This document shows, in pieces, positions 25,081-33,624 of a DNA stretch of 33,624 nucleotides; position 1 is the stretch's first letter; every line of letters starts with the position of its first letter. The stretch covers positions 1 to 33,624 of the IMG/VR virus record IMGVR_UViG_3300042458_001472; one strand, 5' to 3'. Source of the DNA: a virus. The notes beneath the pieces were generated by a model that saw only the letters and a list, made by a program, of their open reading frames with translations, had not been told where the DNA came from and ran no database searches. Position numbers and translations under genes: made by a program.

Positions 25081-25905
25081 ATGAATAAGATTGCTAAGAC
25101 CTTTGCTATTAGTGCTCTGGTTCTGTCGACCACTGCAGCATGTGACTATATTGAGCCTGGCACCGTAGGTGTTAAGGTCACTACTGCTGGTGGTGAGCGA
25201 GGTGTGCAGCGTGCTCTGCTTGAGCCTGGTCGTCACTGGATTGGTTTCACTGAGCGGCTCTACACATTCCCCACGTTCGTGCAAAACTATGTATGGACAA
25301 AGGCAATCACTCCGCAGAGTCCTACCGACGAAGCCATTGACTTTCAGAGCCGCGAGGGTGCTAATATCAACAGCGACTTTGGCATTCAATATAGCTTTCA
25401 GCGAGATCGTATTCCGGACATCTTTGCCCGATATCGTATGGGTGCAATCGAGATTACTCGACAGACTCTTCGCAATGAAGTCCGTGATGCACTTACCAGT
25501 GCCGCTAGTACTCGCCGCATCGAGGATCTGATTGGTGAAGGTAAGAATGCATTTATGGATGAAGTACTCAAGACGGTTAAGGAGCGTATGGCCCCACACG
25601 GCATTATTGTCGACAACGTATATGCTGTGGGCCGATTCCGACTGGCAGCAGAAACCGAAGCAGCTATCAATCGCCGTATCACTGCAAGTCAGGAAACTGA
25701 ACAGCGCCGACAGCAGGTAGAGACTGCACGTCAGGAAGCCGAGCGCCAGCGGATTGAGGCTGATGGACAGGCTGCAGCTAACCGCATCATTGCGCTGAGC
25801 ATTACACCTGAGCTTGTTCAGTACATGGCTGCGCAGAAGTGGAACGGACAGCTGCCCGCTGCTACAAATGGTGTGCCATTCATTAACCTTCCGGGGACTC
25901 GCTAA
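25081..25905 (+). CDS. SPFH/prohibitin-family lipoprotein
   Basis: This 274-residue protein has an N-terminal signal segment (MNKIAKTFAISALVLSTTAAC) ending in a possible lipobox Cys at residue 21. A band-7/SPFH domain follows (EPGTVGVKVTTAGGERGVQRALLEPGRHWIG, NSDFGIQYSFQRDRIPDIFARYR, LRNEVRDALTSAAS). The last third is an Ala/Glu/Gln/Arg-rich coiled coil (RRITASQETEQRRQQVETARQEAERQRIEADGQAAANRI), as in prohibitins and HflK/HflC. Such proteins form large membrane scaffolds and can regulate FtsH protease. It lies between two small membrane protein genes with one-base spacing. Confidence 0.87.
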   Translation: MNKIAKTFAISALVLSTTAACDYIEPGTVGVKVTTAGGERGVQRALLEPGRHWIGFTERLYTFPTFVQNYVWTKAITPQSPTDEAIDFQSREGANINSDFGIQYSFQRDRIPDIFARYRMGAIEITRQTLRNEVRDALTSAASTRRIEDLIGEGKNAFMDEVLKTVKERMAPHGIIVDNVYAVGRFRLAAETEAAINRRITASQETEQRRQQVETARQEAERQRIEADGQAAANRIIALSITPELVQYMAAQKWNGQLPAATNGVPFINLPGTR

Positions 25906-26340
25906 ATGAATTCGCTTTCTTGGCTGATTTATGCCGCTAATGTTGCAGAAAGTCTTTCAGGCTTTCTGGTTTTTATAACGATTCTCTTTGCTATTGCAAC
26001 AATTGGTGCTGTTATTGTTGCTTTTGTCCATATGGATGAACAGCCTGATTTTAGGCCACTCAGTGAACCGATTCTAACACTTCGGCGAAAGCGAAAGGTA
26101 GCGGCATTTAAGCTTTCATGTGCATTTTTTGCTGCTATGACAATTGTAGGTATTACCACTTCACTAATTCCAAACCGTCAGACCGTGCTGCTAATTGCCG
26201 CTTCTGAAATTGGCGAACGAGTCATGACTCACCAGCGTGTACAGGATGTAGTTGATCCGTCCATTAATCTTCTTCAAACTTGGATCCAGCAGCAGACTCA
26301 GCAGATCCAGCAGCAGATGCAACCGCGGGCTGTCAGGTAA
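25906..26340 (+). CDS. Membrane protein with Gln-rich tail (144 aa)
   Basis: This 144-residue protein has two predicted transmembrane helices: SGFLVFITILFAIATIGAVI (about 18-37) and FFAAMTIVGITTSLI (about 73-87). Its C terminus (LLQTWIQQQTQQIQQQMQ) is a Gln-rich helix likely to form a coiled coil. It starts directly after the SPFH gene stop, so the pair are translated together. It may be a partner of the SPFH protein. The family is not recognised. Confidence 0.75.
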   Translation: MNSLSWLIYAANVAESLSGFLVFITILFAIATIGAVIVAFVHMDEQPDFRPLSEPILTLRRKRKVAAFKLSCAFFAAMTIVGITTSLIPNRQTVLLIAASEIGERVMTHQRVQDVVDPSINLLQTWIQQQTQQIQQQMQPRAVR

Positions 26341-26361
26341 GTTGGTATAGGCTGTTAACGG

Positions 26362-26416
26362 ATTACAAATTTGTAATAAAACTACCGTTGACAGCCGCCT
26401 ACCAGCCTGGTATAAT
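26362..26416 (+). promoter_or_regulatory. Early promoter with perfect ATTACAAATTTGTAAT palindrome
   Basis: The palindrome at 26362-26377, a 10-bp gap, TTGACA (26388-26393), a 17-bp spacer and TATAAT (26411-26416). It drives the RNA ligase gene. Confidence 0.88.
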
Positions 26417-26440
26417 GAGGCTATAAGGAAAGGAATTGAT

Positions 26441-27472
26441 ATGTCTGATCGTAAGCTTGCTACCGTCCGTCGCGTTGCGGACATTCAGCCCATCCCTGAT
26501 GCTGATGCTATTGACGTAGCTACGGTTGACGGATGGAAGGTTGTAGTCAAGAAGGGCGACTTCCAGGTCGGTGATCTGGCTGTGTACTTTGAGATTGACT
26601 CTTGGATTCCAAAGGCTATTGCGCCTTTCCTGAACCGTGGCCGTACGTACAACGGAGTTGAGGGTGAACGTCTGCGAACAATTAAGCTTTGTAAGCAGAT
26701 CAGCCAGGGACTTCTGCTCCCGGTGTCTGCTGTAGCCACATTTGATGAACGGGATTCCAACTCGTACATTTGTGATATTGACTATCTTGTAGAGGGTGAT
26801 GATCTGACCGAGTATCTTCAGATTCAGAAGTACGAAAAGCCCATTCATGGTTCTCTTGCCGGTGTAGTCAAGGGTAATTTCCCTAGCTTCCTGCGCAAGA
26901 CTGATCAGGAACGCGTTCAGAATCTTACTAAGGACATCCGTCGTTGGGAAGAGGAAGGCGCTCGGTGGGAAGTTACCGAGAAGCTTGATGGCTCTTCGAT
27001 GACGGTTTATCGGCACAATGATGTGACCGGTGTCTGCTCTCGTAACTATGATCTGGAAGAGACCGAAGGCAATGCATTCTGGCAGGCTGTTCGTCGTGAA
27101 GATATCGACCAGCGCCTTCCTGCAGGTTTTGCTCTGCAGGGCGAGCTGATTGGCCCTGGTATTCAGGGCAATAAGTATGGTCTTGATGCCACCGACTTCT
27201 TTGTCTTTGATGTCTGGGATATCAACAAGTCTTGCTACCTGACTCCCGATGAGCGCCGTAAGTTTTGCAAGGCCTTTGCCTTCAATCATGTTCCTGTGCT
27301 TGCTACCGGAACGACTGGCACTTCTGACGTTAATGCACTAATTGCATCGGCCGATGGCCAGTCTCTAATTGGTAAGAAGCCGCCTCGCGAAGGAATGGTG
27401 TACAAGAATATGGCTAATGACACTAGCTTCAAGATTATTAGTAATCGCTGGCTACTGAAGAACGAGGAGTGA
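26441..27472 (+). CDS. RNA ligase, Rnl5/DraRnl-like
   Basis: This 343-residue protein has a two-part layout. An N-terminal OB-fold-like domain (residues 1-150: VDGWKVVVKKGDFQVGDLAVYFEIDSWIP) is followed by a nucleotidyltransferase domain with motif I EKLDGSSM (active Lys near 180), a motif III-like FVFDVWD after FALQGELIGPGIQGNKYG, motif IV EGMVYKN, and motif V SFKIISNRWLLK. The N-terminal OB domain is the arrangement of Deinococcus RNA ligase (Rnl5), which seals nicks with a 3'-OH RNA end. In the phage it may repair tRNAs or other RNAs cut by host defences. Confidence 0.9.
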   Translation: MSDRKLATVRRVADIQPIPDADAIDVATVDGWKVVVKKGDFQVGDLAVYFEIDSWIPKAIAPFLNRGRTYNGVEGERLRTIKLCKQISQGLLLPVSAVATFDERDSNSYICDIDYLVEGDDLTEYLQIQKYEKPIHGSLAGVVKGNFPSFLRKTDQERVQNLTKDIRRWEEEGARWEVTEKLDGSSMTVYRHNDVTGVCSRNYDLEETEGNAFWQAVRREDIDQRLPAGFALQGELIGPGIQGNKYGLDATDFFVFDVWDINKSCYLTPDERRKFCKAFAFNHVPVLATGTTGTSDVNALIASADGQSLIGKKPPREGMVYKNMANDTSFKIISNRWLLKNEE

Positions 27473-28495: not shown

Positions 28496-28571
28496 GCCCG
28501 CTTAGCCCACCGGCAGAGGCAAAAGACTTAAAATCTTTACAGGACGGGTTCGAGTCCCGTAGCGGGTACCA
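28496..28571 (+). tRNA. tRNA with anticodon TAA (Leu), short variable loop
   Basis: Acceptor GCCCGCT / AGCGGGT (again G1-U72), D-arm GCCC...GGC, anticodon stem AAAGA / TCTTT with loop CTTAAAA, variable loop of five bases (ACAGG), T-arm ACGGG-TTCGAGT-CCCGT, then ACCA. It starts two bases after the previous tRNA. Like that one, it has the leucine anticodon but no long variable arm. Confidence 0.9.
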
Positions 28572-28620
28572 ATTTTTGCGCTTTATACCATAAAAAGCTG
28601 CTCCAGATGTAAAAAGTGGG

Positions 28621-28649
28621 TTGACAAATCAAGGAATTTGATATATAGT
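28621..28649 (+). promoter_or_regulatory. Promoter for the structured RNA array / Ro-like gene
   Basis: TTGACA (28621-28626), a 17-bp spacer, and TATAGT (28644-28649). The whole promoter lies within an inverted repeat, GGTTGAC / GTCAACC (about 28619-28625 / 28648-28654), with an inner ATCAA / TTGAT. Confidence 0.7.
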
Positions 28650-28661
28650 CAACCTATAAAT

Positions 28662-28690
28662 TGAATGAGACACTCACTAAGCCTCATTCC
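28662..28690 (+). ncRNA. Leader hairpin before the RNA array
   Basis: GAATGAG and CTCATTC form a perfect 7-bp stem around a 12-13-nt loop. It lies at the expected 5' end of the transcript, just before the first array unit. It lacks the CAGCA motif. Confidence 0.55.
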
Positions 28691-28698
28691 CGACTATT

Positions 28699-28761
28699 AG
28701 GATCGGTTCAGCAAACAAAAAACGCTAAACCCTGTAAGTCTTAGCGGACCAAAACGATCCC
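28699..28761 (+). ncRNA. Structured RNA array unit 1
   Basis: The closing stem is GGATCG / CGATCC (28700-28705 / 28755-28760), with the motif GTTCAGCAAAC just inside the 5' strand. An internal hairpin CGCTAA / TTAGCG follows. GGTTC can also pair with GGACC in the 3' part. Units of the same plan follow at 10-17 bp spacing. Confidence 0.6.
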
Positions 28762-28771
28762 GACAAGTTTT

Positions 28772-28863
28772 AGGAAGCTTGCAGCAAACCATATCTAACT
28801 CAATGGTAGAGCAATCGCCTTCAACGCGATAGGAGCGGTTCAAATCCGCACTATAGGCTTCCT
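28772..28863 (+). ncRNA. Structured RNA array unit 2, with a tRNA-like core (anticodon TCA)
   Basis: The closing stem is AGGAAGC / GCTTCCT (28772-28778 / 28857-28863), with the CAGCAAACC motif inside. The core imitates a tRNA: D-arm CTCAATGGTAGAG, perfect anticodon stem ATCGC / GCGAT with loop CTTCAAC (anticodon TCA at 28821-28823), and T-arm GCGG-TTCAAAT-CCGC. A normal acceptor stem and CCA are missing. This layout recalls bacterial YrlA Y RNAs, where a tRNA mimic is held by a Ro-binding stem. Confidence 0.6.
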
Positions 28864-28873
28864 GTCTAATATT

Positions 28874-28995
28874 AGAGTGGTTACAGCAACACCGTCGCGC
28901 CTACAAGCGCATCCAGAACAGTTGGGGAGCTTCGGCAAAACCAACAACCTTGTTCTTCGATTTCTCAAGGCTAAAAAAGAAGTAGGAGCCACTCT
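28874..28995 (+). ncRNA. Structured RNA array unit 3
   Basis: The closing stem is AGAGTGG / CCACTCT (28874-28880 / 28989-28995), with TTACAGCAACACC inside. Internal hairpins include GCGC / GCGC, AGAACA / TGTTCT and, nested in the latter, GTTGG / CCAAC. It is the longest unit (122 nt). Confidence 0.58.
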
Positions 28996-29012
28996 GTTAC
29001 TTTATTAGTTCT

Positions 29013-29103
29013 AGGATCGGTTCAGCAAAACCTTTTAGTTGGTTCGACTCCAACATTGCCAACCAAGACCTGGCAGCTGCCCGAGGGGGCAAAAAACGAT
29101 CCT
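29013..29103 (+). ncRNA. Structured RNA array unit 4, with tRNA-like T-arm and CCA before an acceptor-like strand
   Basis: The closing stem is AGGATCG / CGATCCT (29013-29019 / 29097-29103), with GTTCAGCAAAACC inside. The core has T-arm GTTGG-TTCGACT-CCAAC followed by ATTGCCA-ACCA, then TGGCAGC, which can pair with TTGCCA, and a GCCC / GGGC hairpin. The order of halves is that of a permuted tRNA. Confidence 0.58.
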
Positions 29104-29114
29104 GTTATAACCCT

Positions 29115-29163
29115 AGGTTGGGTTCAGCATCTAAAGCTTTGATATAGCAACCAAGTCCAACCT
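29115..29163 (+). ncRNA. Structured RNA array unit 5
   Basis: The closing stem is AGGTTGG / CCAACCT (29115-29121 / 29157-29163), with GTTCAGCATC inside and a further GGTT / AACC pairing. It ends 22 bp before the start of the Ro-like gene, so the array probably continues into its mRNA leader. Confidence 0.55.
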
Positions 29164-29185
29164 GTTAAACATTATGGAGATTATG

Positions 29186-30610
29186 ATGAATACGTTCGTA
29201 AATGCCGTTATCAACCAAGATTCCAGAACTCAGAATGGTATGAAGGCTCGTGCTTCTACCGCGTCTGCATGCGTAGACCTCTTCTTCAAGATTGGCGCTC
29301 TGCGTGGACAGGATCCTATTCCTGCGTTTACGGCGGCATTTGTTGAGGATGCCGAGATTGCCACTCGTATTGCACTCTGGGCTCGTGATGCCCGCAATGG
29401 TGCAGGTGAGCGTGAGATCTACCGTAAGGTTCTTCGTCATGCAGCAAAGAATCTGATGGGTCATGAGCTGACTCGACTCATTGACAAGACTCCTGAGCTC
29501 GGCCGTTGGGATGACCTTCTGGTTCTGCTTGAGGACGATGTAGATGAAGACATTCAGAATGTTGTTGCATCCAAGATCGGCCGTGCACTGATGGCCAATG
29601 ATGGTCTGTGTGCCAAGTGGACCCCGCGTAAGGGTGCTATGGCTGTCAAGCTGCGCAATAAGCTCGGCATGAGCCCTAAGCAGTACCGCAAGACCCTTGT
29701 CACTGCATCTAAGGTTGTTGAGACTCAGATGTGTGCCAAGAACTGGGATGAGATCAACTTCTCTCATGTTCCGTCTGTAGCGGCTAGCCGTTATAAGAAG
29801 GCCTTCAACCGCCACACTCCGAAGTATAAGGAGTGGGTTGATAAGCTGGTCAAGGGCGACAAGACTGTAAAGGTTAACGCTGGTGCAGTTTATCCGTATG
29901 ACGTCCTGAAGGGTGTCAGCAACTACGCTTGGCGTTCAGACTATAACAAGACTGAACTTGATGTCGTTAAGGCTCAGTGGGATGCTCTGCCTAACTACGT
30001 TGGTGATGCTAACGTGTTGGCTCTTGTTGACGTCTCTGGCTCAATGGGTGCTGGTGTTGCAGGTGGTAAGACTACCGCAATGGACGTAGCTGTCAGCCTT
30101 GGTCTGTACTGTGCTGATAAGAACAAGGGCAAGTTCAAGGATACATTCCTGACCTTCTCTTCTTCCCCTCAGCTTTTGCATCTGAAGGGTGATATCCTGC
30201 AGAAGGTGCAGCAGATGGTAACTTCGAAGTGGGAGATGAATACCAATCTTCATGCTGCGTTTGAGAAGATTCTTGACGTTGCAATCAAGGGTGATGTACC
30301 TCAGTCCGAGATGCCTGCTACTCTGCTGATCATGTCTGACATGCAGTTTGACCAGTGCACTCGCTTTGATGATACTGCAATGCAGATGATTCGCCGTAAG
30401 TACGAAACTGCTGGCTATACTGTTCCGAATATTGTGTTCTGGAACATCATGGCAGCTAGCAATGTGCCGGTGAAGTTCAATGAGCGTGGAGTTGCTTTGG
30501 TCTCCGGCTTTAGCCCTTCGATCTTGAAGTCCGTGCTCTCAGGAGACATGGAAGATATGACTCCAACGGGTGTTATGATGAAGACTATCATGCATGAGCG
30601 CTATGCCTAA
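29186..30610 (+). CDS. Ro60/TROVE-like RNA-binding protein with vWA domain
   Basis: This 474-residue protein has an N-terminal helical-repeat region (residues 1-240) with segments such as VDLFFKIGALRGQD, ALWARDARNGAGEREIYRKVL and GRWDDLLVLLED. This pattern is typical of TROVE/DUF2828-type proteins. A C-terminal von Willebrand A domain has the metal site DVSGSMG (272-278) and LLIMSDMQFD. Ro60 proteins bind misfolded RNAs and Y RNAs and can gate RNA degradation. Start: ATG 29186, five bases after GGAGA. It follows an array of structured RNAs including a tRNA mimic. Strong codon bias suggests high expression. Confidence 0.82.
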   Translation: MNTFVNAVINQDSRTQNGMKARASTASACVDLFFKIGALRGQDPIPAFTAAFVEDAEIATRIALWARDARNGAGEREIYRKVLRHAAKNLMGHELTRLIDKTPELGRWDDLLVLLEDDVDEDIQNVVASKIGRALMANDGLCAKWTPRKGAMAVKLRNKLGMSPKQYRKTLVTASKVVETQMCAKNWDEINFSHVPSVAASRYKKAFNRHTPKYKEWVDKLVKGDKTVKVNAGAVYPYDVLKGVSNYAWRSDYNKTELDVVKAQWDALPNYVGDANVLALVDVSGSMGAGVAGGKTTAMDVAVSLGLYCADKNKGKFKDTFLTFSSSPQLLHLKGDILQKVQQMVTSKWEMNTNLHAAFEKILDVAIKGDVPQSEMPATLLIMSDMQFDQCTRFDDTAMQMIRRKYETAGYTVPNIVFWNIMAASNVPVKFNERGVALVSGFSPSILKSVLSGDMEDMTPTGVMMKTIMHERYA

Positions 30611-30626: not shown

Positions 30627-30697
30627 GTCGGTGAAGTGTTACGGTAGCACGGCGGTCTCCAAAACCGCAGGCGAAGGTTCGACTCCTACCACCTTCG
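30627..30697 (+). tRNA. tRNA-like, anticodon CCA (Trp), imperfect stems
   Basis: D-arm GTGT-TACGGTA-GCAC and anticodon stem GCGGT / ACCGC with loop CTCCAAA are good. The T-stem GAAGG / CCTAC has one mismatch. The acceptor pairs GGTG / CACC near the T-stem but has a two-base internal mismatch, and CCA is not encoded. An alternative acceptor GGTGAAG / CTTCGCC would disturb the D and T spacing. It is either a weak or a degenerate tRNA gene. Confidence 0.65.
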
Positions 30698-30720
30698 CCG
30701 CTTTGTATACAGTATCTTAG

Positions 30721-33199: not shown

Positions 33200-33226
33200 C
33201 ATTAATCACTAAGTGTGATATAAATA
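33196..33226 (+). promoter_or_regulatory. Hybrid early/late promoter for tmRNA
   Basis: TTGACA (33196-33201), a 17-bp spacer, and TATAAATA (33219-33226). It has the same double-use layout as the promoter before the first tRNAs. Confidence 0.78.
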
Positions 33227-33230
33227 CAGA

Positions 33231-33490
33231 GTTGCCGTTGATAACGATCAAATAAGTTAGTCAGGACCGCGGGGCAGTACCGCGCATCTCCACCAATTTT
33301 TGGTAGCTCGCCTAAGTTCTGGATGCTTTAAAGAGCAAGAGGAAAACTCTGCCGCCAGTATGGGGATGAAACAGGATCGACTGATAACAGTAAGGGTTGA
33401 AGTAGGCACCGGTGCGGAAGCTACCTTAACGCAACAAAACAAACAAATGCTAATTCGAATGAAAGACTAGCGTTGGCAGCTTAATTGCTG
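33231..33490 (+). ncRNA. ssrA: Circularly permuted two-piece tmRNA
   Basis: The acceptor piece comes first: GTTAGTCAGGAC, T-arm CGCGG-GGCAGTA-CCGCG, CATCTCC and ACCA, ending at 33295. After a 66-nt spacer the coding piece starts with GGGGATG (33362-33368), which pairs with CATCTCC to give the 7-bp acceptor stem, then AAACAGGATCGAC. CTGATAAC pairs with GTTAGTCAG as helix P2. The tag frame is 33449-33484 and encodes ANSNERLALAA, followed by hairpin CAGC-TTAATT-GCTG (P5). tmRNA frees stalled ribosomes and tags the stuck protein for proteolysis. The right end of the coding piece is not certain. Confidence 0.9.
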
Positions 33491-33624
33491 TCGGAGTTTG
33501 TAGGGTACTCGGCAACAGAAACTCTACGTTTTCTACCACCTGACAGATTTGGTGCTTGTAGTTTTGTCAAACCTTTATTCCAACCACCACCTCTGGTGCA
33601 ATCAGCACATTTTCTACTACAATA
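33481..33624 (-). CDS. C-terminal part of an antisense homing-endonuclease-like gene (partial)
   Basis: A minus-strand frame enters at the right edge and ends at TAA (33483-33481), inside the tmRNA P5 region. The 47 visible residues include YCSRKCADCTRGGGWNKGLTK, whose zinc-binding Cys pairs and WNKGLTK tract are common in phage HNH-type homing endonucleases. The rest is a basic tail (GGRKRRVSV). The start and nuclease core lie outside the window, so the assignment is tentative. Confidence 0.5.
   Translation of the reverse strand, partial: YCSRKCADCTRGGGWNKGLTKLQAPNLSGGRKRRVSVAEYPTNSDSN

Follow-up and report, generated by a model that had tools for sequence, protein, structure and literature searches.

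A phage Y-like RNA with a tRNA module in normal order and a Ro-type stem instead of an acceptor

Chen et al. are said to have described, in 2014, phage Y RNAs that lie beside Ro60-like genes, with at least one tRNA-like RNA per species. In D. radiodurans, Rsr and Y RNA occur in one particle with PNPase. The bacterial Y RNA YrlA, encoded beside rsr-rtcBA, retains a capped acceptor, and the anticodon arm is absent. Scanning bacterial genomes with the phage Ro60-like protein described below gave no relative, and bacterial YrlA was reached afterwards via loci around rtcB. In these loci, rsr-like genes with a vWA domain precede YrlA units, which are matched by the YrlA model RF02553 at 69 to 107 bits, the YrlB model RF02565 matching once. 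The bacterial units are permuted, with the order T-arm, capped acceptor, and D-arm; the Ro stem, with the motif CGAATGC...TTGTCG, replaces the anticodon arm. Five bacterial slipin-rtcB loci (L297:4508, L313:4111, L318:4503, L302:4484, and L310:4107) carry a tRNA-like module with no CCA and with unusual anticodons, and there it is preceded by a second module composed of acceptor and T-arm only. For the vertebrate Y RNAs, the seven-base-pair lower stem has been identified as the Ro60 site (PMC4726728).

The locus studied here is located in an environmental viral contig of 33,624 nucleotides (IMG/VR record IMGVR_UViG_3300042458_001472, positions 1 to 33,624), referred to as the window; all coordinates refer to it. 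The locus shares with the phage Y RNAs of Chen et al. the position of Y-like RNAs next to a phage Ro60-like gene, with the D. radiodurans particle the protein fold (2nvo; Z, 13.1) and the idea of a scaffold, and with YrlA a Ro-type stem, a module of D-loop and T-loop, and a gene placed beside that of a Ro60-fold protein. The D. radiodurans particle includes PNPase, whereas the phage system has no known partner nuclease; the vertebrate stem has a bulged C and an opposite three-nucleotide bulge, whereas the phage stem is followed by three nucleotides and CAGCA. YrlA has a permuted module and retains the acceptor at the expense of the anticodon arm, whereas the RNA unit at the center of this study, unit 2, has its module in normal order and lacks the acceptor but not the anticodon arm; the stem motifs of the two differ as well.

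Five RNA units are arranged head to tail on the plus strand between tRNA genes and the Ro60-like gene, and all five open in the same way, first a stem, then three nucleotides, then CAGCA(A). A sigma-70-like promoter (TTGACA-17-TATAGT, 11 of 12 matches) at 28621 to 28649 is a candidate start of the array, but one such site was found where shuffled sequences give 1.1, so that it is suggestive only. Ahead of unit 1, a hairpin without CAGCA (GAATGAG/CTCATTC, 28663 to 28689, plus strand) was read directly from the sequence. Unit 1 (28700 to 28760) is a short Y-like RNA with a 6-bp stem (GGATCG/CGATCC) followed by GTT and CAGCAA. Unit 3 (approximately 28874 to 28995) is a Y-like RNA of 122 nt with a T-loop-like hairpin (TTCGATTT). 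Unit 4 (29013 to 29103) is a YrlA-like permuted unit with a T-arm at 29038 to 29054, a capped acceptor, TTGCCA-ACCAAGACC-TGGCAG, at 29056 to 29076, and a degenerate D-arm, and unit 5 (29115 to 29163) is again a short Y-like RNA. Long units resembling unit 3, whose T-loop-like hairpin is TTCGAGTT or TTCGATTT and which have no full tRNA module, were observed directly before the Ro60-like gene; they recur in the close relatives L003, L007, L011, L016, and L028 some 170 nt ahead of the gene and constitute a third class worth modelling. An RNA ligase gene (TIGR02306, DRB0094 type) is present at 26441 to 27472, 1.3 kb ahead of the array, which suggests an RNA repair neighbourhood. The contig, which is T4-like, also holds a permuted tmRNA of the alphaproteobacterial type at 33202 to 33575; a second such tmRNA was found at L191:2485-2850, on a contig that also carries a normal-order unit.

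Unit 2 (28772 to 28863, plus strand) is a Y-like RNA of 92 nt in which a Ro-type stem replaces the acceptor of a normal-order tRNA module. The 5' strand of this stem (28772 to 28778) is followed by TTG and CAGCAA (28782 to 28787), and its partner strand lies at 28857 to 28863. The first-pass annotation of this DNA, made from the letters alone, had described a unit closed by AGGAAGC/GCTTCCT, and folding indeed gave seven perfect pairs with pair probabilities of 0.96 to 1.0, the unit as a whole having a folding z of -3.1. The D-, anticodon- (UCA), and T-arms read in that annotation were likewise recovered: the Rfam tRNA model matches 28796 to 28849 at 35.6 bits (gathering threshold, 29; E = 9.5e-6 for the 641-nt stretch searched), and the conserved tRNA residues are present in all three arms. 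Specifically, the D-arm (28798 to 28812) has, after correction against the Rfam alignment, three pairs and an A-C mismatch, with the conserved GG in the loop AAUGGUA; the anticodon arm (28814 to 28830) has five pairs and the loop CUUCAAC, with the anticodon UCA at 28821 to 28823; and the T-arm (28835 to 28849) has four pairs and the loop UUCAAAU. Pair probabilities are high for the anticodon arm and the T-arm, and the D-stem is disfavoured by energy alone (probability, about 0.01). The acceptor is the missing part because the Rfam match is limited to model positions 8 to 63 of 71. The best acceptor pairing that can be drawn comprises four of seven pairs, the other tRNAs of the window except that for Trp reaching seven of seven, and no CCA is encoded after the unit, although it is present in nine of the ten other tRNAs found by ARAGORN in the window; the earlier description of a module with neither acceptor nor CCA of its own thus holds. 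The tRNA match and the folding z place unit 2 beyond chance, and we consider the feature confirmed. The exceptional tRNA-Trp(CCA), located just past the Ro60-like gene at 30627 to 30699, has no encoded CCA and, as called, a poor acceptor, for which GGTGAAG/CTTCGCC may be the true acceptor. As to a tRNA ancestor of unit 2, the tRNA-Asn of the window ranks highest with 41 identities in 61 aligned columns, a result that is not decisive.

Directly downstream of the array, the gene at 29174 to 30610 (plus strand; the true start is perhaps 29183 or 29186) encodes a protein of 478 residues with Pfam domains DUF2828 and DUF7788 and a vWA domain, relatives of which occur in 676 phage records. The TROVE model PF05731 gave no match in this protein or in the whole contig. 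Because a sequence search of the PDB returned nothing useful, the fold was predicted; the model has a pLDDT of 79.6. The best Foldseek match was a TROVE domain (E = 7.7e-10), followed by Thermus phage Ro60, the Ro autoantigen, and D. radiodurans Rsr. When aligned with VIA-align, the TROVE domain 9kop gave a Z of 20.7 over 407 residues, compared with about 11 for single vWA domains; the values for the Ro60 of Thermus phage phiLo, the Ro autoantigen, and D. radiodurans Rsr were 19.5, 16.6, and 13.1, respectively, and the fold of helical repeats plus vWA domain is also matched by 1yvp and 2nvo. On the basis of the predicted structure, the product is assigned a Ro60 fold over nearly its full length.

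The arrangement of a stem, three nucleotides, and CAGCA was found at four places in the window, all within the array, with 0.35 expected; unit 1 fits with one pair fewer. For a broader view, every 5-mer beside a perfect 7-bp stem was counted at spacings from 0 to 8 in 43 non-redundant loci, and CAGCA at spacing 3 ranked first with 64 cases in the 43 loci (mean per 5-mer, 1.13; standard deviation, 2.4). Because the motif had first been noticed in these same 43 loci, a check for selection was needed. In 42 loci picked by the protein alone, 79 units were in the sense orientation and one was antisense, with 33 of the 42 loci containing units, and the density per 10 kb was 2.63 around the gene family versus 0.25 in other phage contigs. 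The motif is therefore linked genomically to the gene for the Ro60-fold protein. Strict units were absent from nine gene-bearing loci, for example KVP40 (L036), OC (L033), L050, and L053; some of the nine hold near-miss units, i.e., L011 with one G-T pair and L032 and L038 with CAGCAC. The unit-bearing phages infect Mycobacterium, Listeria, Staphylococcus, Enterococcus, Bacillus, E. coli, Klebsiella, Campylobacter, Vibrio, Aeromonas, Rhizobium, and Synechococcus. A stem of 7 bp followed by three nucleotides and CAGCA is thus common to units and phages, and it is a putative docking site for Ro. When the window and the phage loci were scanned with Rfam for Y RNA families, only tRNA and tmRNA were returned; the Rfam Y RNA models missed every signature RNA tried, and some of these RNAs are annotated as tRNAs. 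The signature allows such RNAs to be annotated across phages of many hosts. A study of Listeria phage cka15 suggests Y RNAs upstream of an Rsr-like gene and reports three highly transcribed regions, one with printed coordinates, 26,236 to 26,727 (PMC12282133). The CAGCA units of cka15 (L174) are located at 25,290 to 25,552, and none lies within this region, the most transcribed of the phage; because the printed region misses the units, the cka15 RNA-seq was dropped as support for expression.

Among the units that bear a D-arm as well as a T-arm, two classes can be distinguished. In the permuted class, the T-arm comes first, followed by the 3' strand of the acceptor, a loop, the 5' strand of the acceptor, and the D-arm, and the Ro stem occupies the position of the anticodon arm; in the normal-order class, which includes unit 2, D-arm, anticodon arm, and T-arm follow one another, and the Ro stem occupies the position of the acceptor. 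Nineteen normal-order units were listed including that of the window, one of which (L201) was rejected as an apparent chance stem enclosing a genuine tRNA, leaving 17 besides unit 2. Most were retrieved by patterns requiring CAGCAA and a D-arm, the L006 unit and the second L172 unit being exceptions, and their D-arms are alike because the patterns required one. At the 116 places matching the pattern, a stem at spacing 3 was found in 15, compared with 1.2 expected. The gene for the Ro60-like protein is present on nine normal-order contigs, of which eight had been retrieved with the DNA pattern alone, and several of those without the gene are short. The anticodon stem, a feature on which no selection was made, is 95% paired in 17 aligned units, and each of its five pairs shows changes on both strands; with the D-stem included, the score is 0.59 versus 0.13 in shuffles. 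Note that the covariation of the anticodon stem may be older than the capture if the units derive from different tRNAs. As in unit 2, Rfam tRNA matches in several of the other units are clipped at the acceptor (model positions 3 to 68, 4 to 67, 5 to 66, and 6 to 65), and the units of L192 and L172 retain some acceptor-like pairing. Sixteen loops were copied by hand for comparison, with L208 and L271 left out for their irregular loops. They contain 12 different anticodons (including UCU, UCC, UGU, UUU, UUG, AUG, CAU, GUU, and GUA), UCA being present in unit 2 only, and all 16 have U33 and a purine at position 37. Both layouts are present on one contig in ten cases including the window, where unit 4 is the partner. 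The normal-order layout was seen in environmental contigs only, some of them closely related (L198/L241 and L199/L210), and no case came from the 23 cultured-phage loci inspected; the layout may have been described before in the phage Y RNA literature. Two genes annotated as tRNAs of 113 to 121 nt, at L035:5895-6137 (Cronobacter phage S13) and L047:5512-5625 (Klebsiella phage FBKp34), have the order of normal tRNAs and a CCA-like end, with a stem hairpin, three nucleotides, and CAGCA in the anticodon region; they represent the permuted Y-tRNA design with its ends relocated to the acceptor.

Since the motif lies beside the gene family in 33 of the 42 protein-chosen loci and on the strand of the gene, unit 2 can very probably be classed as a Y RNA of a phage. 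The first-pass annotation had assigned it the architecture of YrlA-type Y RNAs, of which the Ro-associated tRNA mimic is borne out by the Ro60-fold gene downstream and the motif shared across phages, whereas the YrlA topology is not. A standard member of the YrlA family, as the adjacent Ro60-like gene, the tRNA-like module, and the closing stem would allow, has little probability: scoring with the YrlA model, which had been proposed as a check, gave no match of RF02553 in 28560 to 29200 up to an E of 10 and none in 14 phage loci, in contrast to the bacterial control reported above, and both the order of the module and the part that is missing are reversed, in addition to the different bacterial stem motif. 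Because of the reversed topology and the silence of RF02553, unit 2 is YrlA-like in broad terms and not a member of YrlA. Its position just past a cluster of genuine tRNAs, together with blastn matches of about 28796 to 28848 to the bodies of tRNA-Thr and tRNA-Asn, could instead point to a tRNA pseudogene inside a chance hairpin; this we hold to be slightly less probable still, as the other units share the stem and CAGCA at a fixed spacing, the excess of stems comes from independent places, independent contigs also pair the layout with the Ro60-fold gene, and the anticodon stem is intact in nearly all normal-order units. Finally, a suppressor or Trp(UCA) role had been offered as a second reading, and ARAGORN calls a tRNA-SeC(UCA) at 28789 to 28858. 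The UCA in a regular 7-nt loop and the score against the Rfam tRNA model agree with a tRNA with unusual ends that would decode UGA as a suppressor, Trp-UCA, or selenocysteine tRNA. Selenocysteine tRNAs have a long variable arm, however, and unit 2 has none. UGA serves as an ordinary stop, terminating 13 of 35 gene-sized ORFs (the authors' choice from the ORF list), including the gp23 major capsid gene, and occurring in frame in none of them. This use of UGA and the varied anticodons of the relatives leave the suppressor reading unsupported and, together with the defective acceptor, the absent CCA, and the clipped Rfam match, make a working tRNA very unlikely, the least probable of the readings considered.

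Regarding mechanism, we judge it likely that unit 2 is a phage Y RNA that docks on the Ro60-like ring, displays a tRNA elbow and an anticodon arm, and cannot be charged. Transcription would start, tentatively, from the site near 28621 to 28649, and the 7-bp stem with three nucleotides and CAGCAA would serve as the docking site for the ring encoded just downstream. The remainder of the RNA would present the elbow and the intact anticodon arm to a partner and, having no acceptor, would escape charging. Because the D/T elbow is common to both layouts, elbow-binding proteins are the first candidates; the most likely role would be to tether or block elbow-recognising proteins on the Ro ring (nucleases, or enzymes of modification or repair), by which the phage might protect, repair, or remove tRNAs and other structured RNAs during infection. 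It is conceivable, at a modest probability, that the complementary mimics of the array form a functional pair, unit 2 contributing an anticodon arm with no acceptor and unit 4 a capped acceptor with no anticodon, such that the Ro particle would present every surface of a tRNA while neither RNA translates. The main rival on mechanism is a decoy for anticodon nucleases, in which mimics of the anticodon arm and the acceptor divert tRNA-cutting defences of the host, these enzymes binding or cutting RNA that is dispensable for translation. The constant U33 and purine 37, i.e., an anticodon arm kept intact despite the variable anticodon, and the nearby RNA ligase gene agree with a decoy, and YrlA has been proposed to inhibit an anticodon nuclease in Salmonella, where, however, YrlA fragments were not detected (PMC7790460). 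As the varied anticodons also speak against a single fixed nuclease target, we regard a decoy as somewhat unlikely. More doubtful is a leader function, by which the Ro60-like protein would control its own synthesis through the array as part of its mRNA: the five units do separate the promoter-like site from the start codon and share their strand, but in phages of Mycobacterium, E. coli, Klebsiella, Staphylococcus, and Cronobacter, units are located downstream of the gene or among tRNAs.

To our knowledge, the tRNA-mimicking Y RNAs of bacteria have no settled function. Unit 2 adds a second, complementary layout to this family, and the existence, in the same arrays, of mimics that omit the other end of the tRNA narrows the purpose of the mimicry. 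The D/T elbow, being present in both layouts, is likely to be the determinant that they have in common, and each of the two offers a clean test for partners directed to the anticodon or to the acceptor.
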